Assembly: GCA_000697665.1 (NCBI GenBank)
Contig: KL197737.1
Coordinates: forward strand, 270,051-334,050
Source of the DNA: Jaapia argillacea MUCL 33604
Lineage: Eukaryota > Basidiomycota > Agaricomycetes > Jaapiales > Jaapiaceae
DNA: 64,000 bases
Reading direction: 5' to 3'
This document shows positions 2,604 to 60,800 of the stretch, piece by piece; position 1 is the first letter of the stretch, and each line of letters begins with the position of its first letter. The notes under the pieces were generated by a model. The model did no database searches. It was not told the DNA's origin and saw nothing but the letters and a program-made list of their open reading frames with translations. Position numbers and translations under genes: made by a program.

Positions 2604-5380
2604 TCACGCAACCTTCACTCCGCCCCATGTCACCTTCTGCCCCACCTTCGCCGCAGCTTCAGCGGGTGCCGCCGGACCTGGTGGCGCTGCCTTTTGGGGT
2701 GGGGTAGGCAAACGGCTGTTCTTGACGGAATCCAGAACTCGTTGCGCATGTTCGGTGTTTCGGATGAACCATCCTGCGTAACGACGGCCAACGGTTGATT
2801 CGACGATGTGGACCATATTCTAGCGACGAGATGCCATTAATCTTCACGAGGAGGAACAGCAAAAAAAAAGTTAACTTTACTAACCTCAGCAATGACGAAG
2901 TCCAAATCACTCGTCGAAACCAAAGTCCCCTCCAACAACCCCTTCCCACTCTCGGCTTGTAAAGTCCCTTCACCTCTCCCAACTTGTCCCCCAACACCCC
3001 CACCAACAACACTCCTACATCCCATCTTCATAGCCATCATACCCTGTACCATCTCCTCTTCATCTGCATCCACAAAGCCCGCCAACTTCTTGGCATCCAA
3101 ACTCGTGTACAGTTTCAAGAAACTTCGGAGAGTGGGAACGGATAATTGGGAGCGGACGGAGGAGAGGAAGAGGGATAGGTGACGTTGGGCTGGTTCGGTT
3201 AGGTTGAGGTGGAGAGGGAGGAGGGAGGGGTCTTCGTATGGTGGAGGGTTGGCGGAGATGAATTTAGGGCAGGCGTAGATGAACAGTTCCTCAAAGGCTG
3301 GGATACCTTCTTCCCTGGAGTCAGAGGGGTTGGAGGTTAGAGTTGGTGACAAAGTGAGGAACGATGGAGACCGACCCGCGAGTCATCTTAGCCGATTGCT
3401 CGCCATATCGTTCCTTGACGACGTTCAGGATGTTATCGTCAACGCGACTTGGCGACAATGCGTTGCAGATGGCAAAGAGCGCATACATCCGATCAGCAGT
3501 CTTATTGATCTACAAAGATGAGGCAGATTTATGTATCCATTCAGGCAAACACTATCGGGGACCACGCACCTGATCATACTGATAGCTCCTCGTATGATAC
3601 TGCCTCATCCTCAGGATGAAGTTCAAAACCGAGACGAAGGTTCTGATAGCGTCCGGGTAACGTTGGAGCATGATGTAACAGAAACCGACATAGTAGTAGG
3701 TTGCGACGTGACAAGCGGTGACACGGGTGAAAGGGGTCTACGAGGAAGGAGAATTGTCAACATTCCGGTTTCCAAAACGGGGGAAGAAATGCCGGAGGGA
3801 CCGAGGTGCGACGATAGTGAAAGGCAGTATACACGAACTTTTTGGTTCAACTCGACGCCCTCCATAACCTTCAAAGCCAAAGTAAAGTCTCCCAACATCG
3901 TGTGCACCCTCAGCAATCCGATGATGCTGAAGTATCCAAGCATACGGTATAGCGGTCTCGAGCCATACTCGCCGACGATCTCACTGAGCAAGGGATGGGA
4001 GTGTCAGAATGCGTTGAGGAGAGATACAAGAAGGAACTTACGCAAGCTCTTCCTCGGTCTTTCCTTGCTGCTGAGCGGCGATATACTCGTTGATTTTGGA
4101 TTTTTGGATAAGGGAGTAGAGGACGTTCAGAACGCTGTAGGCACTCCACACCTATAACAGGATGTTAGTTCGCATAGATTCATATAATTGGAAAACGAGG
4201 TGGGAGCAAAATGCAAACGACGCCCTTCTGCAATGACTTCAAGGAGATAACGAGACGGCGAACATCACCAACGAGAGGAGAGCCTGATCGACAAGACGAC
4301 ATAGATCGAGACTGAAATTGATAATGATAAGATTTTCGATATTCACACTTGCCTGTGCAGCCTCCTGCAGCATTGCCAACTCCTCATCCGACTTGTTCTT
4401 GACTCTTGATCTCCAGACGCAGTATGATTGGAATTGGTAGATGAATTCGTCTATGATGTCCCAAAGCCATTGTTCGGGGAGGTCAAGCGGGACTGGACCT
4501 TCGGAGTCTGTGGAACGGGGGTGAGCGGGTCGGGATGCAGTTACGAGGAATGATATTAGGGACGGCAGGAAGGACCCAGGTGGGAGAGCGAAGGGACAGG
4601 GTTGAGGGGAAAAGGGGAAGGAAGGAAAAGCGAGACTCACTGAGCAGGTAGTTGAACAGCTCGCAACTGTTCTCGTATGAATGGAATCGGTCGTCGATGT
4701 TGGGTTGTAGACGGGAGTAAACGTGTCGGTAGTAAAGTTCTCGGTAGAGAATCAGGAATATTGGATCTGTTATAATCGAATAGATAGCAGTGAGCAACGA
4801 TTGTGGAGTGGAGCATGGCTGTCACGTACCGTCGTTTACCAAAGGGGCGATAACCTCCGCCTCAGGCCACTCCGTCTTTGCGTAGAACTTTTCGGTCAGA
4901 CGTGTCCATCCGCTCTCATAGGCGACTGTGATTTCTTCGAGGTTGTTGTTCAGGACTGCTTGGTGGAAGTGGACGATAAACTGGACATAGATCAAGATCG
5001 GTCAGATATTCTAGCAGAAAGAAAAAAAGGAGGATGTGCCTTACCCGTTTAACAGTATCAGGAATTTGGGCGAAAGCAGCTTGTTGGGCCATCTGTTGCT
5101 GGACTGCGAGGAGGGCAGCTTCGTCTATCCGAGATTGAACTGTGGCAGCCCCGAAAAAGTTGGTCAGTCAAACCTCCAGTATCCCACCTCTCAAAAAGAG
5201 GCATTGAACCCACATCCTTCTTCTACGACAGGGCTGGATATCAATACTGGTGAAGTACTCACCATCATCGTACATCCCATTCTGACCGTAATTCCCGATG
5301 GCGAGATTCATGTCCACGCCTTGAAAATCTTCCTCGATCTCATCTTCTGCGGCCCAGAGAGCTGGTCGTTGCTGAGACAT
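2604..5380 (-). CDS. eIF3l: Eukaryotic translation initiation factor 3 subunit L
   Basis: eIF3l is a PCI-domain subunit of the eIF3 complex, which binds the 40S ribosome during translation initiation in the cytoplasm. The start at 5380 gives [19 protein letters not shown], an acidic N-terminus. Later exons carry family blocks: [95 protein letters not shown], and [19 protein letters not shown] before the PCI region. The last exon ends with [20 protein letters not shown] and a short Ala/Pro-rich tail. At least eight introns interrupt the gene. A glycine-rich insert ([14 protein letters not shown]) sits in the PCI region and looks lineage-specific. The gene is divergent from the tandem nucleotidyltransferase, with a 267-base spacer. 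The identification is firm; some internal splice sites are approximate. Confidence 0.92.
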
Positions 5381-5647
5381 TGCTGATACAAGGACGGCCC
5401 GAGCGATTATACAGATATTGTACACCGGGAGTGAAAAGCAGAGGACAGAAATTTCAGTTTCGGCAAAGGCCGGTGTTGTGATCAGGAATTTGTTGAAGTC
5501 GAAAATCTTGCGAAGTCCGTCAGAGACTCAGACTCTCCTGGCTTGTACTGCAACCAAGACTTGTAGGCCAGCCAAATTGGTTGTCTGTCCTATCTCTCGC
5601 CGGACATTGCTGGTCAATTCCTTGCCCACCAATCTCTAGCCCTATCT
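5381..5647. promoter_or_regulatory. Bidirectional promoter region (eIF3l / tandem nucleotidyltransferase)
   Basis: The 267 bases between two divergent start codons must hold both promoters and 5' UTRs. I see no clear TATA box, as is common for housekeeping genes in these fungi. Shared control is inferred from the layout only. Confidence 0.5.
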
Positions 5648-8600
5648 ATGCCAAGGCTCGTCCAGATACGCCTCTTTTCCACCGCAAGCCGTCGACTCCT
5701 ACCTTCCAAGCAGCAACTATTCGAACCATACACCCCTCCTCTCAATGAAAAACAGAAGAAGAAGCTGCGCAAGGAGCTGATCAGGCATGCGCCCCACTGG
5801 CACAGCAGGGGTTCCATCGATGCGAAATATATGCTGAGGGTCAGAATTCATCGCGTTTTCGATTTCACTCCCTATTGCTGATGGATACTCGCATGGGTAT
5901 CACAGGCTTACGGACCGAGCTCGCAAAGGGAGGCGGAGCGAGATGAAGCACTCCAGAACATCCGCACCACCATCCGGGCTGCCTATGGCGAAGATTTCGA
6001 TGTGGTGGACATTAGCCTCGGGACATATGGTCATGCTATCCATGTCGAGCCTCTGAGACTGGTCATCGTGGTCAGTGCTTCGCGCTTGTTGCAATGGGAC
6101 TAATGAACATATGTGACGCGTATACGCTTCGAAGGACAGGAAACACACTAACGGTATCCCTCCTGGGACTGACCCAAATACGCTCTCGCCGGTTTACGAC
6201 CCGAGGTGAATATCTCTTCATTCATCCCTCGTTTACAATCAAATCAACTCATAACTCTCAGTGCTCTGGCTCGCACCTTCCTCGCGGCGGGGTACACAGG
6301 TGTCTTCCCCGCCTATGAAGCTCATCGCTTTCAACGTGCACCTCGCTTCGATGGTGTCAATCAATGTCCATCACTTGAAATCCAAGCTCCTACCATACCA
6401 TGGCCGGATTTGCAAAGGGAGACGTGGAGGGAGATAGATTGGCCTGCTTTCTTGATCATTTCCGGAAAGGCAACTCCCGGAGTGGGCGAAGAGACGGCAG
6501 TGGCCTTGTTGTCGCCTTCTTCAAGAGACTATTCGCGCGAGGACCGTGATGACGCACCACATCACAGGCTGACAACATTCGATCCCCCAAGATTCGAGCC
6601 CCCACCGCCATTGACGATACACCTCTCGCTGCCTGGTATGTCTCTTTTTAGTACACATTTTCTTTCCCGACCCCCTCGCACTTTGCACGTAACTAAACTG
6701 GGATTCGTCGTTCCTAGGACCCACCATCCTACCGCTGCACCGCCTTTTGAAACGGTACTGCGCGATATCCGAACAAATTCCAATGTTGATCAGTTTGGTG
6801 TATCTTTGGCTACGCAGTTGGGGGATTGTGGATTTTGGCGGACAAGCGTTGGCATTGACGGTGATCAATTTCTTGATTGTGAGTTCATTATCCTCCGTTC
6901 TCGTGCTTGTGGTGAGGTTCGGTGTATCACTTTCTGTCTCATGCCATTTGTCTTCGCCCCCACGTAGGCATCTGAAGGCCTTCCAAACCTGCTTGAGGTC
7001 CAAAAACATCGACGTGACACTCCCGCCAATCCTGAAACCTCCACGGGAGACCCGGCACGTTCTCGTCCCTCTACCTCTACTTTTGCCCCAGAGGTGGTCC
7101 CGAAGGAGGTCTGGGTGTCACATCAATACCCTCAGTTTCCCGAAGCCTTTTATCAAAGATCTTCAAATCCTAGGGATCGGGCGGGCAGAGGGCGGGATTG
7201 GAGGCGTGAGAGAGGGTTGAGGCAGGAAGGAGACATAGAACCTACGTGGGTTAGGGAGACCGTTGTCGTTGGTGCCGATTTTTTTGATGGCAGGGTCAAA
7301 TGGAAATTGTGGTCTCGAAAGATTGGGCCTATATTCCATGATTTCTTACAGTGCGTCTCTCCCTATCTTTCACCTTGGCATTAACTCCTTCATTCGGTAT
7401 GCACGACCCTAATATTTCTCGCATCCTAGATATATTTCTAATATCCCTCTCTACGTCCAACGTGAGAGCGTCATCTCTATCGACCATCCCTCGCCCTCCT
7501 CGACAGATGCGCCAACAAAGGCGAAACCAGGCGGGAACATTCTACGGCCTCCTGCTGTCCCTCTTTTGGCCCGGAGGGAGATAAAAGTGTTGAAATGGAG
7601 AAACAAGGAGTCTGTTGGGAATGCGATGAGGCTTGATGCGAGAACGTTTGACCCGAAACGAGATGTGATGAAGCAGCCGCCGAAATGGAGATTCTCGGAT
7701 GTGGTGGTGCAGGATCCATTCATTTTGACCCACGTAAGTCTCCATCTCCACTCACATTGTTTAGTCCTGGAGTGGACTGACAAGACTTTCGGGGATGTAG
7801 AACCATGCGGAATTGACGAGTCGAGCGACTTGGCAATTCCTCCTCTACAAATGTTTCACCACCACCCGTCTCCTCCGTAGAGCCCACGCTCTCCCTTCGG
7901 TTTTTGGTATGGCAGTGTTACCCCAGAAAGCGTCACCTGCGTTTGTGAGGTTGATAGAGGAGGCGAATGCACCGGAGAGAGGTGATATTGAGGACGCGGA
8001 AATGGAGTTGAGGGAGTGGTCCAGGAAGGCCATGGGGTTGGATAGGGAGGGGCAGGGGAGGAAGAGGCGGGATGGAGGTTTGGATGGTCCGGAGGATAAG
8101 GAGGAAGATGTGGAGGAGGACGAAAGGGAGGATGGAGAACAAACTTTGGATAGGTCGGGGATGCGGTTTGCGAAGGAGAGGCCGCCACTATCATTCCTCA
8201 ATGGAGCGGGAGGGAACGGCAAGAAGTTCTACACGGGGGTTGGGTTTGGATTGGCTGGACGGGGATTCCATACTAGTGCGGCAGTTGGTTATCAGACCAA
8301 GCCTAACCGGATAGTGCGTGGTCCTTTTGCTTGTCAGATTCTTCTTTGTGATTTCGAGGGACCTAAATGTGGTCCTATCCGTCCATTAGGCTGAAACACC
8401 TATAGACCTTGATGAGAAGCGTAGAAGACAAACGGTTAATCGAGTTGAGGTCGCCATCAAAAACGCGTATGGTTATAAGTATCGGGTCTCGCGATTTGGG
8501 AGTACAAAATATGGTGTTAGCTCACCGAACAGCGATTTGGATCTTATCATTATTGTGAGTTGCATCGCGTAATCGTAGCTTAGGATTCAGACTAATTCTC

Positions 8601-10756
8601 ATCCCCGTGCTCTCAAGGATCCCGATCTTCCGAACGGGTTTCCTCCTCAAGTGAAAATTGATGATCTTCCGAGTAAGTTTCAGTATTCCCTCGAGTTTAC
8701 ATGATCTCATTGCGGATTACTCAGAGGTTTACAAAACTTTGTGAGTCTCGTGGACACCCACCGTTCGGACCATTGGTCTCAAGCAGATCCCAACTCTCTC
8801 CGTCTTCAGTAATTTGTCGCGCACCCTGCACAAGGCCGGATTCTCGGAAATCAAAGCGGTTCCAGGGGCTGCTGTACCTATAGGTTGGTATATGTTTCAT
8901 AATTCATAGTTTTCACTCCTCTGACTCATTAAACTGCATCAACGATTTCCGTTCTCCTTACTGCGACCAACAACCTTGGGCAAACGTCTAGTCAAGTTCA
9001 AAGATAAGGCAACTGGCATTACGTGCGACATCAACGTAAACCACCAGCTTGGGTTAAAGAATACCAACCTCATCGCAGCGTATTGCGAAATTTCGCCTAT
9101 CTTGAGACCCATGATCAAGGTCATCAAGAAGTGGGCGAAACCGCTGGGGCTCAATAGCCCAGGTAGGGGAGCTGTCGTGTCGTTCAGCAGCTATGCATTA
9201 GTTCTTTTGGCGATTGCTCGACTCCAGGTGAGAATTATTTCGTTCCCGCGTTTGTTTGAAGCATGCTGAGATTGGGTGTTTCTCCTCGCTAGATGAACGG
9301 TCAACTACCGAATCTCCAAGCCGGACTCCCGGCACTCCAACCTGACGACAAGACTGGGATCTGGTGGATAAGTTCGCGGGGCGGGAGAAAAAGAACCAAG
9401 TGCGACGCGAGATTCGCTCCCAATCCTCAGTGGGTTCCCAAGAACCCAATGGTTTTGAAGGAAGCGCTCCTCGATTGGTTTACGTGAGTGCTTCGTCTGC
9501 ACTATGCCCTTGTATTAGGTTTATATCCATTTCCTGGCAGATTTTATGGTGAAAAGTTCGTCGCGGCCGATCAGCTCGTAAGTATCCGTCATGGCAAACT
9601 CCTTCCGCGCCCCGCCCGGAGTGGAGAACCAGATGTCGAACCCGTGCTGGAAGCAGAGCCAAACCAGGAATTCGAGGAGGATACCCCGGAGAACCTGGTC
9701 GAGAATCTCGAGGACGACCGGTTTGGGCTCAAGCGCACAAGCTTCGACGAGGTACTGATTCAACCGAAAGTTAACGAAGACGTGGACGATGGCGATCAGA
9801 CGGCCGAATACGAGGAGGACATCCCACTGGAACGGCGAGAGGATGATTCTTTGACAGTTATTGAAGATGAGGACCACATCATTCATACCCAAGGATGGCG
9901 CAATCATGCCATGATCATCATCGACCCCTTCGTCCGGGAAAAGGTGAATACTTTATTCCTATTCCTGCGCCAATTTGCCTGAGCTTCACTTACGATTATT
10001 TAGAATGTCGCGAGGAATGTTGGGAAGGCCGTGGTCCAGAGATTCATCGCCGACTGTCAACGGGCATCCAAATTGTTGCGGAGTGGGATGTCCTTGGAGG
10101 AATTAATCGGCGAGGAGAAGCACCCTAGCAAACGCAGGGAATCTAGCAATATCGTCAATCCAGGAATGGGGGGACCTGTCAAATTCGCACTCGATCAACT
10201 TCTGGGAGACATGGACAAGAACTCAAGCAAGCGCAGGGAACCTAGCCATACCGCAAACCCAGGGAAGGGGAAACCCGGCAAAGTCGCACTTGATCCCCAT
10301 CCAAAAGACATGGACAAGAAGCGCAAGGAACCTAGCGATACCGTTAACCCAGGAAAGGGGAAACCCAGCAATGTCGCACTCGATCACATAGACACGAAAA
10401 CTAGAAACCGCATTATGGAGAAGATAAGACTCGCCTCTCTTGCTATTAACCGCAACCGCGGATCATCTCGATCGGAGATGGATAGTGTTCCATCACACCC
10501 TGGCCTTAGCACTCTTCATCACCACGGCACCACTGAGTATGTTTGTCTTCAATTGCAAAACACCCTTCTCTTACAACTCCGCTTCCTCAGTAGTCTTCCA
10601 GCGTCCGCGCCAGAGCCTCGCATGGACGCGGGGCTCGAATTGAAGAACGCTGTTGAACCACCTCCTTCCCGCCCTGCCTTTAGTGACGATGAATCTGCCC
10701 GTTTGCTCAACAACGAACTTTCCAAAGCCCGCGCGAGACTCGGGAAGCAACAATGA
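5648..10756 (+). CDS. Tandem Cid1/TUT-type nucleotidyltransferase (noncanonical poly(A)/poly(U) polymerase), probably mitochondrial
   Basis: About 16 phase-compatible exons give a protein of roughly 1,350 residues with two nucleotidyltransferase (NTase) plus PAP-associated modules. The C-terminal module (about 8390-10120) has the catalytic signature FGSTKYGVSSPNSDLDLIII, the third carboxylate in GITCDINVNHQLGLKNTN, a PAP core (ILRPMIKVIKKWAKPLGLN) and the closing IIDPFVREKNVARNVGKAV. The N-terminal module (about 5900-7880) aligns block by block: LGTYGHAIHVEPLRLVIV, SALARTFLAAGYTGVFPAY, ILPLHRLLKRYCAISEQIPM and VQDPFILTHNHAELTSRATW. It lacks the SDLD pair, so it should be catalytically dead. 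The N-terminus (MPRLVQIRLFSTASRRLLPS) looks like a mitochondrial presequence. An acidic linker joins the modules, and three degenerate repeats lie near the C-terminus. The role would be adding A or U to RNA 3' ends. Two adjacent genes are a less likely reading, because the exons run on in phase across the linker. Confidence 0.8.
10130..10395 (+). repeat. Three in-frame tandem repeats (about 90-97 bp units) in the tandem NTase C-terminus
   Basis: Three consecutive units start near 10131, 10228 and 10318. Each encodes a variant of K-R-x-E-x-S, then NPGKGKP, then VALD, and the first two end in DMDK. Units two and three are closest to each other. They lie after the catalytic module, in a basic, probably disordered tail. 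Confidence 0.75.
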
Positions 10757-18691: not shown

Positions 18692-20929
18692 GTGGTCGTC
18701 GTTAGGTTGTTGACGAGAGAGGACTGTCAACTACTTCAAGAGTCTATCAAAGCCTTGTGAATAGGTGGACGGGGAGGTAAAAGTGGAGCAAACCAACTCA
18801 CAGGGTGTGGAGAAGCCTCCGCGAGGCTATGAAGGATGGATACGAGGGGGAGATGGAAGAAGAAATGTGCCGGGGAGGAGGGCTCAACTTATCCTCGGAG
18901 GAGCAGACGGAGGAGTGGGATGAGGGACAAGGGAGTGCTCCACCGAAATCCCAAACCGTGTTCTTGTAAAAGCGAGAAAACCGATTTACACCCAGCCCCG
19001 TCCCTTCCATATCCGCACGTTCGATAAGCAACCAAAAGCCCACGAACGCAATCACAAAAAACGAAAACGCCGAAGACACTTACCTCTTACTTCATGCATC
19101 ATCATCGCAACCACCAGCTTGGATTCCTCCGATTCTCGATGAATGAAACGCAACAAGTGGTGCTTTCGGGGTCCTGGGTGTATTGGTGCTAAAGACGCCG
19201 TGACAAGTGACGTGCGTGGTTATCGTAAAGATAAGCAAAGTGGATGATCGGTACCAGATCTCTCTTGTTCGATCGCGATAAGCTGGAGATCCCATTATCT
19301 GGGTCGACACGTGGGAGACGCCATCAAGCCGGCCCCTTCCCTGCTTTTCAATCATCGTTGCATGCATCATGAAAGCAGCAAATTGCAAGCATAAATGGGA
19401 TTGATTGCACGCATAGTCGTCGAGGCCGCTGCCTGCGCACTTCGTTACTATTTCTCATTACAGTGTGTAGTGATTGATTGATCATAAGGTATTTCCCAGC
19501 AGAACGGGGCCCTGGTTACTGACAAACCGTACCTTGCAAGGGAGGATACGAAAATGGTTGAACGACAACCTGACATGACGCGGGAATGACATCACCACTA
19601 AACAAACGTACTGGTCCCGGACGACATACCACAAGAGCTCGCCAAGAAAAACACAAGCGCAAGATAACCGGTGAGCTATGAAGAATGTCGGTGAAACGCA
19701 ATCACAATGCAGACTGTGTGGCGTGTAGATGGCTGGGACGACGAGGTACATATAAGGCACTCGTTTCCTCCCGCCTGCGAGAAGAAACGAGGCAGTGACA
19801 TCACCCGCCATCCAGAACGTCGTCATACACGACGTTGAAGGGCTACTAGTATGACCTCCGTGTAAGGGACGGTACCGTTTGCATGAGGAAGCATTGGTGC
19901 GGGCGTCGGACGGTTTCAGGATGGTTCGATTCTAGTGAGAATGCGTATGAAGGGGTGTGTTGTCTTCGTCGTCGGTGAGAGCATGGTTCGTCAGAGTGTT
20001 CTCTCGTGGGCTTCGGGGCGGAAGTTCTTGTATTTTCCATGTCGATCTTTTCCTTCGAGGAGAGGATTAGGATGTGATTCCACCACGTTTATTCTTCACA
20101 GCGTGAGTGGGAAAACGAAGAGGTATGGAGAAGGATGACAGGTGCGGTACCGGGAATGACGGGACGGACATGGCTTCTCGAAGCTAAAGTTAGATCGAGA
20201 CGACCTGCCAAAGCGGCGCGCTCGCATAGTAGGGCTAGACAGGGATTATGGGCGTTATGAAAGCAGAGAGGGTACAGTGAAGTGCATTAGGATGATTGGG
20301 GAAAAGTAAGTAGGGTACATGGGGTGTGCTCCACGAGGCGAGTTGAACGTGAAGGCCGATAGGGAGACGGATGGCCGCTAGTAAAGGCAAAGAGTACCAG
20401 CCGAGAGAAGCATGCATTCTTGAGATGTGGTGAAAGGTAGATTGTGCTAATTGAAAACCAGGATGCCGGAGGACGAGAGTGTGATGGACCCGGTAGGAAA
20501 GTATGGGGTTGATTTGGTGAAAGTAATACTGAAGAAACTCGTCCGGGCATGGAATTGTACAGGAGGCTGGTGAAAAGAAACCTTCTAGAACGAACTTTGA
20601 AACTTGTTCTCGAGTCAAAGCATGAGAGACGCAACTGGATAATCACATATGCCCAAATAATCTTGAGTGGCTGCAAAAGGTGTGTCCATAATCTAATTCG
20701 AATGTGCGTGATAGGGACCGGAGTGTACTTTTCAGCGACGGCTATCGTGAACGAGGCTGTAGAATCAGAGCGAGATAAGCAAAGAGATATATGTCGTTAC
20801 ACAGGCGACACTTCACTCGATTGATGAAAACAAGTCATGCCAAAATGAGGTGAGACGAGTCAATGCGTGAGATCGATAGAAGGTAGTGGTTCGTTCGCGG
20901 AGCCGGCAGCAAACGTTGGTAAGGCATCC

Positions 20930-21325
20930 CCAAGGGTTGGGGAGGAAGTCGAAGTGAAAAGACACGAGGATCGGCGGATTGAAGGTGGTGGGCAAGTAGA
21001 GAAAGCGATCCCAAACAAGCCCTAGGGCCAGCACTGGTAGCACGTGGGCTTGGGTCCAATGAAGGCACAGACGAATAGAACACCACTGAGAACCAGGACA
21101 AAAATTAGTGAGGCGTCGGTGGTATTGCAAAACCGACGATGAAAGAGGGCAATGTATCTCCAGGGGGCTGGGGAGGAAGACAAAGGGGGGAGGTACAAGG
21201 ATTGTGCGTGCCGAAGGAATTGATAGGGTGGCAGGGCAAGCGGAAGGATCGGTCCCAACCAGAGTTCTCAGGTCTAGCATAGGTAGGAACGTGGGTCTTG
21301 GATCTAACACAGGCGGAGGCGAGTA
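20930..21325. repeat. Diverged direct repeat, two copies of about 150 bp
   Basis: Copy A (about 20930-21080) and copy B (about 21165-21325) share an ordered series of similar blocks: GGTTGGGGAGGAAG / GGCTGGGGAGGAAG, then GGGCAAG, then GCGATCCCAA / ATCGGTCCCAA, AGCACTGGTAG / AGCATAGGTAG, CGTGGGCTTGG / CGTGGGTCTTGG and GGCACAGACGAATAG / CGGAGGCGAGTAG. They are clearly diverged. No known element is recognised. Confidence 0.5.
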
Positions 21326-21802
21326 GAAGTGCACAGGGGAGTGAGTCAACCGATTGAAAATTTCATGGGATGAGGATGAGGGCTGGACGGGGTTCGAAGG
21401 AGGGAAAACACCGCCAAGCGCTGAGGAAGAGCGAAGACGGGAGGGCGACAGAGGGGATATGACGGTCGGCTTTCGCGGCAATACCAAAAATGTGACTTCT
21501 CGCCGCAGAGGAGAAGCATCGTGGATGGGACGCGGTGGACGATAGCGATTGACCCCTCGGGGAAAGGAATACTGCGAGGGGAGATTACCCGTTGGTTGGG
21601 GATGTTGATTTGAACGTAAGGCTGTTTGAACGATGTAGCCAGTCAACGGGGAAAAGAACGGTCCGATGAGAGATTAATGCTCGTTTCGTGAATGGGTATT
21701 GTCGAGTGGGTGTGAGGCTGTTGACGAGAAAGATGCGATGCAGGGATGATGGGCGGGCGAATGTGATAAGGGTGAGGCTGAGGGTTTGGATGAGGGATTT
21801 CG

Positions 21803-21996
21803 TCCTAGCGTTGAAAGGCGGTGGGGTGTTTGGGTGTAGTATTGGAATTTCTCCCCGGCGGAATGGGATGTCGTGAGGGCTATCAGTACAGAACTATCCT
21901 AGCATTGAAACGCTGTAGGGGGCATCTGGACATTGTATTGGAATTTCGCGCCGGTGGATGGGATGTTGGGATGGCTGTTAGTACATAACGATTCCG
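21803..21996. repeat. Tandem repeat, two units of about 94 and 100 bp
   Basis: Unit one begins TCCTAGCGTTGAAAGGCG near 21803 and unit two TCCTAGCATTGAAACGCT near 21897. Both then share GTATTGGAATTTC, CCGG(C/T)GGA, TGGGATGT and GGCTATCAGTACA / GGCTGTTAGTACA in the same order. A third, weak partial unit may begin near 21997. Function is unknown. Confidence 0.65.
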
Positions 21997-23569
21997 TCCT
22001 TGATTAACGTTGGGGATGGGATGGGATGGGTGTGGCGATATTGAATACTTGAAACGTGTGTCGGGTAGGACCGATGGGTGTAATATTCGAGGGTTGGGCA
22101 AGGCTTGAAGTCTAAACCCTACCGGGGCGATGAATTGAAGAAGCTGACACATGGATAGATGAATCACGGATGGGCGGGCGGGATGAGCGTCAATCATTAA
22201 GAGATAGTGTTCCATGCGCATGATAGCAGGGACGGGAACCTCTGTCGGCGCGAAGAGAAGTGGATCATGGCAGGCTAATGTGTTCCATTGTGGTAAGGGA
22301 TAAAGATAATGAACTTCGAGGACGTACGGGCGTATCTGTACGTCCTCCGAGATTCACAGACTCGAGGCATCGATAATAGCCCGAGATGATAGGGAGTTGA
22401 TCGTCGATCCGGTTATCCAGACGCCCATCTTAAAGGTAAGCACTCCAGAGTATCCCCATCCATCCGTACCTGAGAAGAAGCTCAACTGAGGCGCTGGCTT
22501 GCTAAACGTATACCTGCCAGGGCGCGCGAGGACGGAGATGATGGGGATGCTGTGGCTGTGCCTATCAAGGCGCCGGCTTGCTGATGTTAACCTTGAATGA
22601 TTGAGGACTAACAGATCACGGTAAAAGCAAGGTTGCGACAAAGGAGAAGTTTGTTTGCAGTACCTCGCCATGCCGCCGTCGGCCTGGAAGACACAGCGGA
22701 AGCGAGTAGTTGCGAACCTGCCAATCATATACTTGCGATACTTGAGCCTAGAGGGCCACGTTGTTGGGGAGAATGTCAATTCACAGCGTGGCTGGAACGT
22801 TGTGTTTGGAAGAGGTGAATTGCCATTGTCTACTGATGCGGGCAAACAGGGAACATTCGATCTGTCAGAGGATGTCAGAGTCGATGTCGAGGGTCTCCAA
22901 CTACGGTGGGAGTGGGGGCGCATCACAGCAACGACTGCTTGTGCAAATCCAGGCACACGCACACGCGGGACATGCACCATCGAGGAAAAACAAAACGATT
23001 TGTTTCCGTGTGCCATGTTCGCGTTGAAGTTCATCCATAACCTAGGGTGATGCGCTACTTTACTGAGCCAATCTGACTCACCTTGCGTCCTTCGCCATTG
23101 CGGCATCTCCGGCCACGCTTTACGCTAAATTCTGAGGAGTGGAGCACAGTTGCCAATTAACGAAAGGCGTTACGGTGCACCCCAAGACCCCGAAACCGGT
23201 TCATGTTTGAAATCAAATAGATAGGAAATAAGACGATCGAATCTATAATGGGAAAGAAGGCGTGTAAGGTGTAAGGCGTTGTAACACGGTGATGTTCTCT
23301 CGAAATGATACGCAATGGAATTCTCTGGACGCGGAGGACTTACAAGGTATGATGTCGATGTAAAGATACGCTCGCTTTTTTATTTTATCGGGCCCGCGCC
23401 GGACTATCGTCTCCACCCAAAAGAACTGCCTTTTTGCTCCTCGTCCCTCCATCTCCTCCCCACCCCACGAGGTTCCCTACTCCTCCCAGCGCCTCCCTTC
23501 CCTCCCTTATCCCTCTTCCTGGTCTGCGTCAAGTCCAATCCATTCTGCTCGTAGATCCCCCACACCGCC

Positions 23570-42932: not shown

Positions 42933-43093
42933 GTCACGTTCTTTTTACTTTTGATCACTTGACCCGTAGAACATTCGTTAGTATTCTGACCAGTAGCGTT
43001 AAGATCTCAGTATGACGCCTTATTGCACCATCGGACTATTCTTAGCTAGCCATGTAGTATATAAGCTTGTACCATCTTAATGCAAACCCCAGT
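42933..43093 (+). repeat. 5' LTR of the chromovirus (visible part)
   Basis: 161 bases beginning TGTCAC match the start of the 3' LTR with one difference. They include a TATATAAG box near 43058. The rest of this LTR lies in the assembly gap; from the 3' copy it should end near 43363. Confidence 0.9.
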
Positions 43094-43710
43094 NNNNNNN
43101 NNNNNNNNNNNNNNNNNNNNNNNNNNNNNNNNNNNNNNNNNNNNNNNNNNNNNNNNNNNNNNNNNNNNNNNNNNNNNNNNNNNNNNNNNNNNNNNNNNNN
43201 NNNNNNNNNNNNNNNNNNNNNNNNNNNNNNNNNNNNNNNNNNNNNNNNNNNNNNNNNNNNNNNNNNNNNNNNNNNNNNNNNNNNNNNNNNNNNNNNNNNN
43301 NNNNNNNNNNNNNNNNNNNNNNNNNNNNNNNNNNNNNNNNNNNNNNNNNNNNNNNNNNNNNNNNNNNNNNNNNNNNNNNNNNNNNNNNNNNNNNNNNNNN
43401 NNNNNNNNNNNNNNNNNNNNNNNNNNNNNNNNNNNNNNNNNNNNNNNNNNNNNNNNNNNNNNNNNNNNNNNNNNNNNNNNNNNNNNNNNNNNNNNNNNNN
43501 NNNNNNNNNNNNNNNNNNNNNNNNNNNNNNNNNNNNNNNNNNNNNNNNNNNNNNNNNNNNNNNNNNNNNNNNNNNNNNNNNNNNNNNNNNNNNNNNNNNN
43601 NNNNNNNNNNNNNNNNNNNNNNNNNNNNNNNNNNNNNNNNNNNNNNNNNNNNNNNNNNNNNNNNNNNNNNNNNNNNNNNNNNNNNNNNNNNNNNNNNNNN
43701 NNNNNNNNNN
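43094..43710. other. Assembly gap, 617 Ns
   Basis: The gap starts inside the 5' LTR and ends in the element's leader. Such a gap is expected where an assembler cannot separate two nearly identical LTRs. The primer-binding site is hidden in it. Confidence 0.99.
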
Positions 43711-46700
43711 CCAACCGCCCTTGTTGCTCGCATACGGCAGCGCAGGAGTATCCGACGTCGACACCGACCTATACCGCGTCAAGACGCTCGAGACTAGTTT
43801 CGACATCCGACATATGACCATCAAAATCTACACCAGCAAATACCGTTGCAGTTACCTTCGCGACCCAGCCTATTCATACGCCGACGCTGTCCGTGGGCTT
43901 CGACTTCGACACGCCTTTGAACACTGGTCGTTCTGCCAGAACTATTCCTGCAGGTACCACACCAGTCCTTGAAACCTTACCGCATGGAAAAGTCCCCCCT
44001 AGAATACATAAGCCGTTCTTCTGATTACTCCCACTTGCACACTCTCGGGTATCCCCGGTTTGTGTTGATCATCTTCGCTGGTGATCAGGTCCGGAATAAG
44101 CTTGTGTTTGAATAGCGGGCCGTCATACCCCTATCGCACTCGCAGGACTTCAAGCGAGTACAGTTGAAAGGTTTCCCACACATCGTCGTCTACGTAATTA
44201 CATAAATAGAAAAACACCATAAGGCCGCAGTATAGAAGTCACGGTGCTAGTAGAGTGTTGACTAGACCCTGACACTGCGAAGAAGCGAATGCTTGCAACA
44301 CCCACGTAAAAGTAGATTCTTCCGGAACTTGTCTAGTGGCATAAGTCCGTTCCGACACTTGCGGCAGACCCTAGGGATTTTCCCAGAATTTACTCAGCCC
44401 GAACCCCGAATTTCACATACCCTCGTTCACACGAGAACCCACCCCGTTTCATATGCCACCCCGAGATAGCGATCTCGTTATCAATTTCATTTGCCGCATC
44501 CTTCTCATCTGCCTCACCGGCATCCACCTCGGCATCGCTATCTGCTCTCACGTTCGTGGAACCCTCATCCACGTTCATAACCAATTACTCCAATTGGTTA
44601 TCACTACCACACGCGCTACATATAGACCAATTGCCGTTCCGGCCGTTCACTTCCAGTTCGACGAAAACGGTTACGTCAGCAGCTTCCTCGGAGACCTATA
44701 TAACGAGGAAGATTTCGAACGTCCTTAGAACACAGCACCCACTCCACCACCACCAGCAGCACCTTCAGTCGGAACACCCGACTTCGCCACCACACCACCT
44801 CGTTCACCATCACCTCCTAGTTCTCGCGAACAGGAGTTTCTTCGTCGCCTTACCGAACTCCGCCAACATCGACCAGAGCTCGACCCTCTCGACGTACTCC
44901 GTCATCGCCTAAACGCACTCAACGCCACCCTCGACTATCCAGACACTCGTGGTAATACTCCCGATTACGAGAACTACGAGACTGCTGAACCTTCCGAGTA
45001 GATGCCCATTGACGCCAGGCGCTTCGCCCCAGTCCAGTTCAACGAACATCTCATCTTTTGGGTTGTTTGTTTACTAGAAGCGCTTCACACCATCATCAAC
45101 GTCCTTGGAGAGGTCCGTCCATACCTCACCAATGACGAACTACTCCGCATCGAAGGACCAGTAGAGGACATACGTAATATTCGAGAGGCGTTAGTAGAGG
45201 CGATCAATAGAGGAGAGTGGAGACGAGAAGTAGCCGAGCACGCACTAGAGAGACAGTATAATCACTTCGGAGACGAAGACCCCCTTTTTGCACCCGACGA
45301 AGACATCGAGGGAAACCCCCTCCTCGACGTCCTTATCCCCATCCCCCAATCACCACGCTTCGAGGAAGTAGTACCCGAGGTGATAGATTTGACAGAGGAC
45401 GATGACACGGTCGTAAAAGGAAGTGGAACTAACGGAGACCCATTTGTACTCTTGTGATTAATTGGCGAAAGTAGTTCAAATTACAAAAAACATTCAGAAC
45501 CGCCACATTGAATCCAGATACAGATCTCCCTTGCTACGGGCTCTACCACATAGTCGGTCTAGAAGACAACTTAGACCGTACGTGGAATTTCGTAACAGGA
45601 GCAGAAGAGAATATCTGCGCCACATCTCCTTGTCCAAATAGATACGTCAGCACAGGGGAAAGCGACGACGAACCAAACGAGGAAGCAGAAAGAGCCGTCA
45701 CACCCTTCGCCCAATTCATAGGGGCTAGAGCAGGACATCGTCGAGCACCATCTGTTGACTTAGATTCGTCACCGGAAGTCCCTACAGCGATACCACCAAG
45801 GGAGCTTTCACCTGTCACACCTCCTACGCCCACACGGATCCCATTACCCCAGACACCTTTAATCACCCCTCTTTCCGCCCTAACATCCCTTCGTACACCA
45901 ACCACCCAATTACCACCCATCATGGCCGCCGTACAAATGACCGATGCCCAATTTAACCAACTCCTCGACACCTTACGAGGTTCCAATGCGAAAGTGGAGA
46001 AAATTGCGGCACCCAGACATTATGACGGGGATAAAAAGGAATACGACGATTGGCGCGATAACGTCACCGCCTACATCGACGCAAACACCAGGGCATACGG
46101 AACCGACAAAGCCAAATTCCTATATGTTACCTCCTTGCTCTGTGGAGAAGCGTCGACATGGAGGAAACACATTCGAACCCAGTGGACACAACATGAAGGA
46201 CTTCTAGCGGCAGAAAAGGCCAAAACACCGCCTGATGCCAATGAAGTCGCTCATCTCGAACAAGTCCTAACATGGGACCGATTCCTTGGAGTCCTCGACG
46301 AACGATTTGGAGAAGTCAACTGAGAAGAGAAGGCCCGTATTCGAATGCTGGAGACCAAACAAGGCAATCGAACCGCCGACGAATATCTCACTGATTATAA
46401 CCGCTTTGTCCTAGAAGCCAAACTCGCACTCCCAGATGTGTTTCACATTGACAACTTCAAAAGGAACGTGAATGTCAAAATCATCAAGAAGATAGAGACA
46501 GGAATCACGAAACCGCCAACCAATTTCGTGGATTACGGTGCATGGATAATTCGGATTGACGAAGCTACGCGACAGTTCAACGCGCAGCACCGTCAAAACC
46601 AACTCTCGGCCCAAGCGCGTCCTTTCGTCCCTCGCCCTCAGACAGTATTCGTACAACGCGGACAACCTCCTCGACAATTCACCCCGCAATATCGTCCACC

Positions 46701-49700
46701 ATCTGGACCCCCACCATCACAATCTGGATCCGGCCAGAATACGCAAAACCGGAGAACCGGCACGGGCATAACGTTCGGAGGCAGTGGCCAGCCAATGGAC
46801 TTAAGTCGCGCACGTGCCTCGGCAGTTTGCTATAACTGTCAACAGAAAGGCCACTTTGCACGGGATTGTCCACAACCCAAACGCCCCATCGTGGAACGTT
46901 CGCGGGAGATGTTCGTGCAGTATACCCCAGAAGAACTTGCAGAGATCCGCAACCTTCTGGATGCACTAAACCAAAAAACAAGTGTTGAAGAAATGGACTA
47001 CGAAAACGCACAAAGACAGGAACAGACGGACCAAGTAGCTGCAGAGTATGTAGATGAAGAGGACGATCCAAATTCCCTCCCGGACGATCCTTCTGTGATT
47101 CCCCAGTCTTTTTACCCCAGTCGATAGTTAACGATGCCGATTATCGACGAAACATTGTTTCTTCAGGTTCTAGATACTCACCGTTAAATTATGATAACGC
47201 ATTCAATACGGACTGTACCATAGAAGTAGATACGAGTACCACGGTGAATCTAATCCCTGACTCTCCCACAGGTATCGGACTTGATAAAACCTCATTAAAA
47301 CAACTACGCACCCAAACTGCTGAACAGTTTTGGTCTTCTATGAAAGAGCGTAACCAAAAAGATCAACTCGCTATGCTTCGTAGATGGACCCCCAGGGCCA
47401 GGTGCTCTGAAGTCGCATCACCGCAGATCATTCGGGAATTGATGTCTTCATCTGATCCTGTGGAAGTAATAGCCGAGTTGCGGGAACCTCGCAAATATTG
47501 TTGGATTCGTAAAACCACCAAGAATCGGGGATTCGAATTGGACGTTGACGTACGAATCAAAAACCTTCAGACTCAGGAAGTCTATTCTGAGAAGGCCCTG
47601 ATTGACTCAGGCTGTACCTTCTCGGCAATCGACGCCAAGTACGTCGACAAACTCGGTCTGGATACCATCGAATTTGCCAGGCCTGCGGCCGTTTATAATA
47701 CCGACGGCACACGTAATTCAACTTCCATTACTCGCTACTGCCAAGTCGAGTTGGAAATGTTTGGACACACAGAATCGATTTCTCTGTGTGTGACGACACT
47801 AGCACGTCACAACATCTTTATCGGATATGATTGGCTCACCAAGCATAATCCGGATATCAACTGGATTGATAACACTCTCGTTTTTAACTGCTGTCCTTCG
47901 GCTTGTGGGATGGTTCCGGCTGTTCTTCGTCGAGCGGATGTTGGGCACAGTCTGGGACTTGATTTAGTTGATTTCCCTGACGACGACGGTGGTGATCTGG
48001 AATCTCACCTTAAGAGGGGAGATAGAGTCTTTGTTACTCACTTTCGACCCAATTTTGCACGAGCCACTGGCACATTGTCAACCCAGTTGGCTATTGACGC
48101 AGAAGCAAAACGTGAAAAGAAGCACTGGAAAGAGATTGTATCTCCGCAATTTCACGACTTCGTGGACGTCTTCACTAAGGAGGATTTCGAAAATACCCCT
48201 GACTCGCGGATCTGGGATCATGCCATAGAGCTCAAGGCAGGGTCAAAGCCCACGGACTGCAAATTATACCCACTATCGCCAAGCGAACAAAAGGAACTTG
48301 ACGAGTTCCTGGAGGAGAACCTGAAAACTGGACGTATCAGACCCTCAAAATCGCCTATGGCTTCACCTTTCTTCTTTGTCAAGAAGAAGGATGGACAGTT
48401 AAGACCGGTACAGGATTACTGAAAACTTAACGAGATGACGATCAAGAATCGCTATCCACAGAACAAATCGAGGATTGTTCGAACCTCTGGTTATGTTTTT
48501 TGGCTTAACCAACTCCCCTGCCACGTTTCAGACTATGATGAACGAAATTTTTCGCGAATTAATCAACGAAGGACACGTCATCATCTATATGGATGACATA
48601 TTAATATTCACCAAAACCCTGGAGGAGAATCGCCGAATCACTAGACAGGTTCTAGAGATTCTTCGGCAACATAAATTATACCTTAAACCGGAAAAATGCG
48701 AATTCGAGAAGGAAACCGTGGAATACCTGGGACACATTATATCCGCAGGACAGATCTCTCTTGACCCAGTCAAGGTTCAGGGAGTACTAGGATGGCCTTT
48801 GCCGAAGTCCAAACGAGATGTCCAATCCTTCCTCGGATTTTGCAACTTCTATCAATGTTTCATCAAGGGGTTTAGTGAGATCGCACGACCCTTGAATGAT
48901 CTCACTGGTAAAACCAATTTCCGCTGGACGGACAGTCAATAACAAGCTTTTGAAAAGCTCAAATCAGCGATCACCTCTACGCCCGTCCTTCATCATCCGA
49001 CTAACACCGACAAGTATTGTGTAGAAACAGATGCTTCCAACTATGCCGTAGGAGCCGTGCTCTCACAGCATCAAGAAGGAAAATGGGTTCCGATCGCTTT
49101 CATGTCCAAGTCCATGAACGATGCCAAACGAAATTACGAAATTTATGACAAAGAAATGCTCGCGATAATGAAAGCTCTCAGGGAATGGCGACACTATCTT
49201 CTCGGCGCAGAACAAGAATTTGAAGTTCTCACCGATCATCAAAACCTCACGTATTTCCGATCTCCGCAAAAACTCAACCAAAGACAAGCACGTTGGTATA
49301 CGGAGTTAGCCGAATATCATTTTACTCTTCAACACAAAGCCGGCAAGGAAAACACTAAAGCCGATTTGCTGTCCCGTCGTATCGATCACGACGACGGAAG
49401 AGAGGATGACAATAAGGACATCACCATGCTAAAGCCACATTGGTTCCAACATTGGATGAGATCGAACGAGATCATATTCGAAGGAAGCGACACCGCCATC
49501 CTGGGAATGATAAAACACGCCAGGAGGAAAACAGATAAATCGGTGGAGATTGCTCTTCAAACAAAGAAGCCAGGCTTCGAGGAGTATGACGGAGTAATAG
49601 AATGGAAAGATAAAATTTATGTACCGAAAGACCCGACAATTCGTGAAGAAATCATTCGACATCATCACAACGTACCCGAAGCAGGACATCCTGGCGCCGC

Positions 49701-51029
49701 CAAAACACATCAGTTGATCACACGAGACTATTGGTGGCCCACGATTCATTACAATGTCAAGAAGTACGTTGAAGGATGTGTTGATTGTCAGCGCGCGAAA
49801 CCGCGTCGAGGTGCTACACACGCTCCCTTACACCCAAACCAAATACCGGATTCACCTGGAGAAATAATTGGGGTCGATATTATTGGTCCACTACCCGTTT
49901 CCAAAGGTTGCGATGCTCTTCTCGTCATCACCGATCACCTAGCCAAGAATATACGACTTCTTCCCATCACCACCGAGCTGTCAGCGCCAGGAGTAGCTCG
50001 ACTCTTTCGTGATAGGTGGTGGTGCGAATTCGGATATCCCCGTAAAGTCGTTAGTGATCGAGGGACACAGTTCGTATCAAACTTCATGAAGGAGCTTCAC
50101 AGCCTTATGGGGATTAGTATGAACCCATCGACCGCCTATCATCCGCAAACGAACGGACAAACCGAACGTGCGAACCAAGAGGTCGAACTTTACCTCCGCA
50201 TCTTCGTTAATCACCTACAGGATGATTGGTACGATTGGATCTCTCAGGCCGAATTCGCATATAACAACAAACCACACTCCACTATGGGATATTCTCCTTT
50301 TTATTTATTATACGGCCGACATCCCTGGACCGGAGTCAACTATCGCCAAAAGGCAAATAACGAGTCAGTACAAGACTTCCACGATCGTATGCGCCGAACT
50401 TGGGACGATGCTAAAGCTGCAATGGCCAAAGCGCAAGAGCAGATGAAGCTATACTACGATCGAAAGAAGTCAGACTCGTATCAATTCAAGATTGGCGACA
50501 TGGTCTGGTTGGAAGCCACGAATATTACGACAGATCGCCCAATGAAGAAATTGGACGACAAACGATACGGCCCCTTCAAAATCATAAAACAACATGGATC
50601 CGCTTACGAACTCGCTCTTCCTGTTGAATGGAAGAAACGACGTATCCACCCTGTCTTTAACGAAGCTTACTTCCGTCCCTACAAGAAAGGTGAATTCAAA
50701 AACCAGAAACAACCTCCACCTCCGCCTACTGTAGTTCACGACGGTTCCGAGCAAGAGATCGAAGCTCTCGTCCAATATCGCGAACATAACGGTAGTATTC
50801 AATACATGGTGAAGTGGAAAGGTCAACCTTCTGGTGATAACCAATGGATGGATTGGAAGTTCGTAAAGGAGCAGAGGGAGGATCTGATGAAGAAGTTTCA
50901 TCGGGAGCATCCGGCGTACAGACCACCTGAACGACTGATACTGCGTTCTCTACAGGTTCGGATGTTACCCATTGACGTTTTGGACCTCAACGACGATCCA
51001 TGAGGACATGGACCATGAGAGGGGGGTAA

Positions 51030-57884: not shown

Positions 57885-60800
57885 ATGGATCTTTTCTCAT
57901 TCATGAACGATACGGAAGATGCGGCAGATCAAGATACAATGGACGTCGACGTCGGGGACCTTCCGAAGAAGAGGAAGAATACTCCTGATGACCACTCCCC
58001 TACTATCGCCCATGGATCCACTCCAACCTTTGCTGAAAATGAAAGCGCTCCTTCGTCTTCAAAGAGACCCAGAATGGCCTCCCCCAAACCGATTGTAGTG
58101 GACGAAGTCGAGATTGAGGCAAAGCGGGAGGTGGCTGCAAGCGCCGGCTTAACTGGCGCTGCTGTAGAGAGTGGTTCGCGACTAGAATTAAAGCACCAGG
58201 TGTGTTGTCGAGTGCTTAGCATGTTTCTACATTTTGTATACCCATCATAGGTTCGACATCAAGTCGCTGTGCCCTCAGGATACAACTACATACCAATCGC
58301 AAACCATATTCCACCAGCCAAACCAGCAAGGGAATATAAATTCACGCTAGATCCGTTCCAACAAGTTTCCGTCAATGCTATTCAAAGAAACGAGAGCGTC
58401 CTGGTGTCTGCCCATACCAGTGCCGGCAAGACTGTTGTGGCGGAGTATGCTATCGCCCAATGTCTGCTGAACAAACAGCGAGTCATCTATACCAGTCCCA
58501 TAAAGGTTAGTTAGATATCTTGAGCAGTGAAGTGGTTCCGCCCCATCGTCTCGTTCGATTTGGAAATGTGTTGAAATGCGAATGAACAGGCGTTGAGCAA
58601 TCAAAAGTATCGAGAGATGTTGGCCGAGTTTGGAGATGTCGGGCTGATGACTGGAGATGTCACAATCAATCCCTCCGCTACGTGTCTCGTCATGACTACC
58701 GAGGTATGTCGGAATACCTCGTCATGAAGGCCTCTATATTTACCTCCTCACTCCGTAGATTCTTCGGTCAATGTTATATCGCGGATCCGAGATAATGCGT
58801 GAAGTTGCCTGGGTAATCTTCGACGAGATCCATTACATGCGAGACAAGGAACGCGGTGTCGTCTGGGAAGAAACGATCATCCTCTTGCCTCATACCGTCC
58901 GCTATGTCTTCCTTTCGGCCACAATCCCTAACGCCATGCAGTTTGCGGAGTGGATATGCAAGTCACATGAGCAACCATGTCATATCGTGTATACCAACTT
59001 CCGACCGACACCCTTGCAGCATTATCTTTTCCCGGCCGGAGGGGAAGGTATTTATCTGGTGGTGAACGAGAAGGGCGAGTTTAGGGAAGATAACTTTACC
59101 AAAGCAATGGGCATGTTGCAAGACAAAGCTGGCGAGGACCCGGCAGATCCTAAGAGCGGGAAGGGCAGGAAGGGCAAGAGCAAGAAGGGTGGAGATAAGA
59201 AAGGTGCAATCTCTGCTAAGGCTCCCCACTGTAGAATTACGCTGAGCTTTCGACCCCGTAGGTCCCTCCGATATCCAAAAAATCATCAAGATGATCATGT
59301 TGAAAAACTACAACCCGGTGATCGTTTTCGCCTTCAGCAAACGCGAGTGTGAAGCCCTCGCCCTCGCGATGTCGAAATTCGAATTCAATACCGCAGACGA
59401 GCAAGATCTAATTACCAATATCTTCAATAACGCCATGGACAATCTTGCTCCTGCAGATCGACAGCTTCCTCAAATAAGTAATCTCCTCCCCTTACTGAAG
59501 CGCGGAATTGGAATCCATCATGGTGGTCTACTTCCAATCTTGAAAGAAGTCATCGAGATCCTCTTTCAGGAAGGTTTGATCAAGGCGCTCTTCGCAACCG
59601 AAACCTTCTCGATCGGTCTCAACATGCCTGCGAAGACCGTCGTTTTCACCGCCGCCCGGAAGTTTGACGGTCGGGAATTCAGGAACCTCTCATCTGGTGA
59701 GTATATCCAGATGTCAGGGCGTGCTGGTCGGCGTGGTTTGGATGACCGTGGAGTCGTTATCATGATGTGTGACGAGAAGCTGGAACCGTCGGCCGCCATG
59801 AATATGGTTAAAGGAGAAGCTGATCGTTTGGACTCCGCTTTCCATCTGGGTTACAACATGGTGTTGAACCTGATGAAGGTAGAAGGCATTAGTCCGGAGT
59901 TTATGTTGGAGAGATGTTTCTTCCAGTTCCAAAATAGCGCGGGCGTGCCGATGTTGGAAGATGGTCGGTCATTTTGTTTCGCTGGTCTGTTTATGGCTCA
60001 ACTAATCATCCGTGGACTCAGAGTTGAGGAAAGAGGAAGAGTTCAAGGATTCTATCATCATCCCGGACGAGGCTCTCGTCGCAGAGTACTACGATTATCG
60101 ACAACAACTTGATCAGATGGCCTCGGATTTCCGAGATGTCATCACTCACCCCAACTACAGTCTACCCTTCCTTCAACCTGGGCGATTAGTCAAGGTGAAA
60201 CACCAGGATATGGACTTTGGGTGGGGAGTCATTATCAGTTATCAGAAGCGTGTTCCTCCCAAGGTACGCCAATTCTCCAGGTGGTTCATATCTTTATTCC
60301 TCCTGGCTCACAAATCTTGTGAAGAATCGACCTATGCCGCAAACGGAGGAGATCCCTCCGCACGAGCAGTATGTTCTTGATGTGTTACTCAATTGCTCGA
60401 CGGGCTCGATGCTCCCGAAGGAACGTAACTCCTCGAGCACTTCCGCAACACCCGGTGGAGTCCTTCCTTGTCCGTCTGGTCAAAAGGGCGACCCATTGGT
60501 TGTTCCCGTCCTTCTTTCCACGATTGATTCGATTAGTCACATTCGAATATTCCTACCTAAGGACTTGCGACAATCTCAAGCTAGGGAAACTGTTTGGAAG
60601 AGCGTTCTCGAGGTACAGAAGCGATTCCCTGATGGCATTGCCCTGTTAGACCCTGTACAAAACATGGGAATAAAGGACGACAAATTCCAAATGTTGATCA
60701 AAGTATGTCGTCCAGATGTAATTCGATGATGGCTCTTACAATCTTTTTCCACTCTCGTAGAAAATAGATATGATGGAGAAGAAGATGTTCTCCAGCCCTC

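Follow-up and report, generated by a model that had tools for sequence, protein, structure and literature searches.

A predicted nucleotidyltransferase gene of the fungus Jaapia argillacea with a degenerate first module and an active-type second module

A gene model with two modules

We analyzed a 64,000-nt stretch of the genome of the basidiomycete Jaapia argillacea MUCL 33604 (contig KL197737.1 of assembly GCA_000697665.1, positions 270,051 to 334,050 of the forward strand). We will call this stretch the window, and all coordinates refer to it. On its plus strand, at 5648-10756, lies a gene model with two nucleotidyltransferase-like modules. Judging by their residues, the first module is dead and the second is live, and we think that they probably form one fused gene for a mitochondrial protein whose second module would tail mitochondrial RNA. 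The features of the gene are:

5648..10756, plus strand: the whole gene model (16 exons, 1351 amino acids, splicing by GT..AG introns)
5648-5839, 5906-6070, 6135-6205, 6262-6635, 6718-6878, 6968-7350, 7430-7733, 7801-8313, plus strand: exons 1 to 8
8390-8554, 8618-8672, 8725-8740, 8810-8883, 8992-9227, 9293-9483, 9541-9943, 10004-10756, plus strand: exons 9 to 16
5648..5839, plus strand: exon 1, with an N-terminal presequence-like stretch, MPRLVQIRLFSTASRRLL... (assigned by rules only)
5906..7920, plus strand: module 1, a degenerate nucleotidyltransferase, residues about 65-592 (from the alignment with module 2)
7921..8160, plus strand: acidic linker in the same open frame, residues 592-670 (by composition: 26 Asp/Glu and 14 Lys/Arg in 79 residues)
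8161..8313, plus strand: internal presequence-like stretch, MRFAKERPPLSF...GLAGRGFHTSAAVGYQTKPNR (by composition and motif)
8390..10150, plus strand: module 2, a nucleotidyltransferase, residues 722-1150 (from Pfam, PDB, and alignments)
10127..10386, plus strand: a 90-nt repeat, in 2.8 copies, in the C-terminal tail, SKRREPSHTANPGKGKPGKVALD...

Once spliced, the model is a single continuous frame of 1351 codons, from the ATG at 5648 to the TGA at 10754-10756. All 15 introns are GT..AG introns of 52-108 nt. An extra 54-nt intron (10537-10590) is optional, as the frame is open without it. There is not a single N within 5648-10756. The 90-nt repeat is in the coding frame and gives basic units of the form SKRREPS..NPGKGKP. 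When we searched the genome (43.7 Mb in 95 contigs) with each half of the protein, the strong matches were to the gene's own exons only, with no second copy; there was also one distant match, at 26% identity, on contig C5. Outside of this genome, a search with 270 residues of module 2 against collections of viral and non-fungal genome contigs yielded 4 pattern matches in the former and 39 in the latter, none of which was confirmed as a relative.

Two related modules with shared introns

An earlier note on this DNA, made from the letters alone, claimed that two homologous modules lie in one open frame, and this holds up. BLASTP of residues 1-640 against residues 676-1160 found three colinear blocks (E = 2e-8, 1e-6, and 3e-4, in a search space of one sequence), and phmmer gave E = 9.7e-13 (in a one-sequence database). 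The local alignment score of the modules is 99, while the maximum among 1000 shuffles was 74. Given just the two single sequences, hhalign reported a probability of 95.2 and E = 7e-9. Within the aligned blocks, the modules are about 25-31% identical. From these comparisons, we read the modules as two copies of one Cid1-type nucleotidyltransferase. The earlier note had also listed a series of ordered blocks that both halves would share. The homology stands, and both modules have a DPF-containing segment near the end (QDPFILTHN in module 1 and IIDPFVREKN in module 2), but the GS loop has been lost from module 1, which has SLGTYG where module 2 has FGSTKYG.

To compare intron positions, we aligned both modules with MAFFT to a Cid1-like gene (on contig C20) and two Trf4/Cid14-like genes (on contigs C5 and C2) from the same genome. 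(The models of these three genes are partial, and their names are our reading.) In this unsupervised alignment, four of the seven introns of module 1 have the same column and phase as an intron of module 2; the pairs, by residue, are 119/776, 142.7/799.7, 448.7/966.7, and 550/1101. Two more pairs come from the pairwise alignment, which brings the matched introns of module 1 to six of seven. The pair 321/903 agrees in position and phase inside a BLASTP block, but MAFFT puts these introns in different columns beside a gap; the pair 64/721 agrees in position and phase at the edge of a BLASTP block. One intron of module 1 (267.3) and two introns of module 2 (794.3 and 824.3) are unmatched. Also, exon 2 has the same length as exon 9 (165 nt), and exon 3 (71 nt) is as long as exons 10 and 11 together (55 + 16 nt).

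No intron column and phase is common to either module and the other genes, within the modelled parts (10 introns on C20, 3 on C5, and 5 on C2). In the same alignment, the two Trf4/Cid14-like genes have two intron positions in common with each other. By a simple binomial calculation, the chance of four exact matches among seven introns is about 7e-8, or 0.009 if three codons of slack are allowed. In our view, the shared introns are the strongest evidence that the modules are kin. They suggest that, most likely, a gene that already had introns was duplicated within this lineage to give the two modules, separately from the event behind TUT4 and TUT7 of animals. Furthermore, the pair 64/721, taken with the internal presequence-like stretch, suggests that the whole gene was duplicated with its presequence exon, so the duplicated unit probably included its own import signal.

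The downstream module looks active

Cid1-type nucleotidyltransferases carry the Pol-beta-type signature, hG[GS]...DhDh...D. Module 2 has both the GS motif and an intact triad: FGS is at 8495-8503, SDLDL ends at 8545, and CDI is at 9024-9032, and the three aspartates are D770 (8534-8536), D772 (8540-8542), and D837 (9027-9029). Module 2 matches the MTPAP-like central domain of Pfam (PF22600) with E = 2.9e-25 and 89.4 bits (the cut-off is 27). Its score for PAP_assoc (PF03828) is 21.5 bits, just under the curated cut-off of 22.6, and in a search of the genome with PF03828, the two-module gene was absent from the listing, which named three other genes.

In the PDB, the best match of module 2 is TUT4 (E = 2.8e-26). 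The other matches include GLD2, TUT7, CutA, Cid1, the trypanosome chain 5a30 (a "mitochondrial protein"; E = 2e-11), and 3pq1 (E = 1e-5). We take 5a30 to be KPAP1 of trypanosomes and 3pq1 to be human MTPAP. The segment IIDPFVREKN aligns with TUT4 and with Tailor, although the fragment alone gives weak matches (E = 0.35 and 1). On the basis of its residues, module 2 is predicted to be an active-type ribonucleotidyltransferase.

The hallmark of terminal uridylyltransferases is the histidine that selects uridine triphosphate (UTP), which is His336 in Cid1. According to the alignments, module 2 lacks this histidine and has Lys1101 (9941-9943) instead, while module 1 holds His550 at the UTP-selecting position. 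The catalytic module of TUT4 and Tailor both have a histidine four residues after DPF; in the dead module of TUT4, the aligned residue is an arginine. Mutants of His336 in Cid1 synthesize poly(A), and CutA, which has Arg557 at this position, prefers C but polymerizes only A processively (PMC7498324). Because a lysine replaces the UTP-selecting histidine, module 2 is unlikely to be a strict uridylyltransferase that makes poly(U). Tailing with A, or with A and C, is more likely.

The upstream module has lost its catalytic residues

The earlier note had called the first module dead and the second live, and the residues agree: only module 2 retains SDLDL and CDI. In alignments with module 2, the positions of the catalytic aspartates are occupied in module 1 by P113 (6050-6052), R115 (6056-6058), and H263 (6620-6622). 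Residues 388-406 of module 1, NPRDRAGRGRDWRRERGLR, form a basic insert that could bind RNA.

Module 1 is open and coding over exons 2-8 and has canonical splice sites throughout. Since it also remains about 25-31% identical to module 2, it seems unlike a neutrally decaying pseudogene.

Presequence-like stretches

The N-terminus had been described as mitochondrial-looking, and this is right as far as composition goes. Residues 1-24 include five Lys/Arg and no acidic residues, and the amphipathic segment at 7-24 has an Eisenberg moment of 0.51. On the other hand, the computed measures turned out to be unspecific (see below). The internal stretch at 8161-8313, which the earlier note does not mention, is similar: it has 8 Lys/Arg and 1 Asp/Glu in 50 residues and a moment of 0.43. 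The R-10 pattern marks precursors that are cut by MPP and then by Oct1, and RGFHTSAAVG, within the internal stretch, fits this pattern. Substrates of Oct1 have Arg at -10, though it is not always required (PMC8847149). If these stretches act as presequences, the protein would be imported into mitochondria.

If so, what would it act on? In fungi, and in Cryptococcus among them, poly(A) is reported to be missing from mitochondrial transcripts (PMC8527493). This implies that an imported nucleotidyltransferase should have a task other than making stable mRNA tails. The most likely targets would be decay intermediates, tRNAs, or rRNAs, which would receive short tails.

One fused gene or two

The open frame, the duplication, and the loss or retention of the triads are features of the sequence itself. 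To explain them, we propose that a whole mitochondrial Cid1-type nucleotidyltransferase gene (the presequence exon and the catalytic exons) was duplicated in tandem, and that the two copies were fused by loss of the first copy's stop codon and are now expressed as a single transcript. The upstream module would have lost catalysis while remaining an intact coding module, and the downstream module would have stayed an active-type ribonucleotidyltransferase. Once imported into mitochondria, the protein would use its downstream module to add short non-templated tails, more likely of A (or A/C) than of U, to the 3' ends of mitochondrial RNAs. The dead module may hold the RNA, or it may pack against the live module as a built-in partner. 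We consider this account of a single fused mitochondrial gene to be fairly probable.

The linker has no in-frame stops, while the other forward frames have 4 and 5; 129 of 5000 shuffles were as open. From 7879 to 8161 (283 nt, which run from the last helix of module 1 to an in-frame ATG), there is again no in-frame stop, and just 20 of 2000 dinucleotide shuffles were equally open. If the region is extended to 8313, then 5 of 5000 shuffles were open, and the other two forward frames contain 4 and 7 stops. None of 2000 shuffles matched the period-3 signal of the linker. We give this little weight, as the test is noisy: the corresponding counts were 12 and 26 for two intergenic controls, 324 for an intron, and 316, 121, 0, and 0 for exons 4, 6, 15, and 16. 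We also tried a coding score, trained on the long open frames of the window (which are unverified genes). It did not reliably separate the modelled frame, and we did not use it. Overall, we favor a single fused gene, which is also the simpler reading.

Several observations weigh against the proposed explanation. Regarding the linker, the purine-rich sequence weakens the test of frame openness; two of the three minus-strand frames are stop-free as well, and they have higher values of the codon score, which is a poor one. The period-3 controls, such as the intergenic regions that scored nearly as well as the linker, count on this side, and so does the rest of exon 8 (8162-8313), for which 1811 of 2000 shuffles matched the period-3 signal. 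Also, the internal presequence is just what one would expect if the second gene were separate.

Regarding targeting, the acidic linker has a moment of 0.48, as compared to 0.51 for the N-terminus and 0.43 for the internal stretch, so this measure is unspecific. Segments that start at residues 545-564, 668-675, 681-687, and 838-870, and thus also stretches inside both modules, passed a crude filter that allows no more than 1 acidic residue and asks for 5 or more basic residues per 40, while the N-terminal 40-mer (9 Lys/Arg and 2 Asp/Glu) fails it. The reported lack of poly(A) in fungal mitochondria is another such point.

Regarding module 1, searches of Pfam and the PDB, both at E up to 10, and of NCBIfam at E up to 1 gave no match. 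A genome search with PF22600 (E up to 1) found eight places, of which two lie in module 2 and none in module 1. When module 1 was compared by hhalign to a profile of the genome's three other nucleotidyltransferases, the probability was 0.2. With module 2 added to this three-paralogue profile, the probability rose to 15.1 (E = 4e-4), as compared to at most 0.5 for eight shuffles and a reversed copy. Without an independent family match, module 1 is assigned to the family through module 2 and the shared introns. Finally, we folded the exon 2 fragment (55 amino acids, with exon 9 as the only partner row). The model has one helix, no sheet, and a predicted local distance difference test (pLDDT) score of 64. 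We list it here, but it is too poor to weigh the fold and neither supports nor refutes a nucleotidyltransferase fold for module 1.

Among the alternatives, the one that survives best is that one transcript yields two proteins. The imported precursor would be cut at the second presequence, by MPP and then Oct1, to give equal amounts of the pseudoenzyme and the enzyme. The presequence-like stretch does lie exactly between the modules, downstream of the acidic linker, and there is a precedent: in fungi, N-acetylglutamate kinase and reductase are made as one precursor that is cut by MPP (PMC10450427). However, the R-10-type pattern is short and occurs twice in the 1351 residues (at 15 and 704, in a non-overlapping scan); its position is the only evidence for a cut, and the internal presequence may be a relic. 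We view cleavage as unlikely. The boldest version of this idea, which we consider improbable, is a fungal mitochondrial RNA-tailing polyprotein with two presequences. Its cleavage would give a pseudoenzyme and an enzyme in a 1:1 ratio, which would then pair, and the layout of TUT4/TUT7 would have been re-invented in this lineage in a non-uridylyl form, in an organelle where mRNAs are believed to carry no tails.

Another alternative is that there are two adjacent genes: a dead copy that runs from 5648 to somewhere within 7880-8160, and a live copy that begins at the ATG at 8161 and has its own mitochondrial presequence. This in-frame ATG is a candidate start for module 2, and it lies near 8160, where the earlier note would place the restart of a second transcript if there were two genes. 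It has a G at -3, whereas the ATG at 5648 has a T at -3, and it is followed by the presequence-like composition and the R-10-type motif. Also, the intron at 8314-8389 lies where module 1 has its intron 1, as would be expected for a complete second gene. But the first gene would lack any in-frame stop before module 2, and the openness of 7879-8161 is rare among shuffled sequences. There is also scant space for a 3' end and a promoter. A hidden intron could have ended the first gene; a scan of 7840-8161 showed none, with a strict rule that recovered just 3 of the 15 modelled introns. We think that two genes are quite unlikely.

It is very unlikely that a shorter isoform with module 2 only is expressed beside the fused protein, from an internal promoter or by leaky scanning: the bases at -3 of the two ATGs would suit this, and in Cryptococcus, numerous start codons are reported to be leaky and to have, downstream, both a signal for mitochondria and an in-frame AUG that is stronger (PMC7049704), but here the two ATGs are separated by about 2 kb of spliced mRNA that contains in-frame Met codons. 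This makes scanning to 8161 implausible, and one would have to assume an internal promoter. Dual expression is compatible with the fused gene. Like the cut precursor, it is a variant of it, so the likelihoods that we assign to these readings overlap.

Neighboring genes and other features

Upstream of the two-module gene, on the minus strand at 5168-5400, is a divergent coding-looking frame that starts about 260 bases from the gene. Because of this arrangement, the two may share a promoter. The minus-strand fragment has no matches to Pfam families at E up to 0.001, and the plus strand from 5383 to 5647 contains no ATG start. Downstream of the gene, 11405-12286 matches the GNAT acetyltransferases.

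Farther along the window, 46324-51000 has matches to a zinc knuckle, a protease, RNase H, an integrase zinc-binding domain, and a chromodomain, which we read as a Ty3/gypsy-type retroelement. Part of an MTR4-like exosome helicase is at 59246-60109. A run at about 43080-43770 translates as unknown residues and falls in the bin with the lowest guanine-cytosine (GC) content; the run itself may cause the low reading. Among 32 bins, the largest GC skew (0.35) is at 20001-22000.

Comparison to known enzymes

The closest parallel to this layout is in animals. TUT4 (ZCCHC11) and TUT7 (ZCCHC6) have two modules per chain, of which the first lacks the three catalytic carboxylates and the second is active (PMC6240794). 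The same inactive-first, active-second order is seen here, where the open frame suggests one chain and the residues suggest the activity. TUT4 is also the best structural match of module 2. The earlier note had drawn this analogy, and it holds for the dead-plus-live layout and no further: the two modules share introns, but neither shares any with the Cid1-like gene of this genome, so the duplication looks separate. Nor did we find a zinc finger or a CCHC zinc knuckle, which are traits of TUT4/TUT7, in a Pfam scan of both halves (E up to 10, with filters that drop most matches above about 0.1). TUT4 and TUT7 are mainly cytoplasmic (PMC6240794), whereas the N-terminus here is presequence-like, and the live module here is without the UTP-selecting histidine. 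In TUT4/TUT7, the binding of Lin28 and its RNA takes place on the half with the dead copy (PMC6240794).

Cid1 from Schizosaccharomyces pombe and CutA from Aspergillus nidulans share their catalytic core with module 2. In CutA, too, the position of Lys1101 is taken by a basic residue, Arg557. These proteins differ in that their solved chains were matched over one stretch only; the full-length proteins are presumably single-module, and the literature consulted describes neither of them as mitochondrial.

If our identification of 5a30 and 3pq1 is correct, then the matches of module 2 also include nucleotidyltransferases with a role in an organelle, namely KPAP1 from trypanosomes and MTPAP from animals. 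However, module 2 is nearer to TUT4, GLD2, and CutA than to 3pq1. A further difference from the mitochondrial poly(A) polymerases is that the mRNAs in fungal mitochondria reportedly have no poly(A) (PMC8527493).

The precursor of N-acetylglutamate kinase and reductase is similar in that two functional parts are imported as one chain, and there MPP separates them (PMC10450427). That polyprotein comprises two different enzymes of the arginine pathway, whereas the parts here are copies of one enzyme, one dead and one live, and the cleavage is putative.

Among the matches listed in a search of the open-licence literature, which covered titles and the openings of abstracts, there was no two-module fungal nucleotidyltransferase. 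This is weak evidence of novelty.

A nucleotidyltransferase in fungal mitochondria would be a puzzle, as the mRNAs there are reportedly not polyadenylated (PMC8527493). If the proposed explanation is true, then this gene would be a second and independent case of a dead-plus-live nucleotidyltransferase, in a fungus, and it would let one ask what selection lies behind pseudo-modules.

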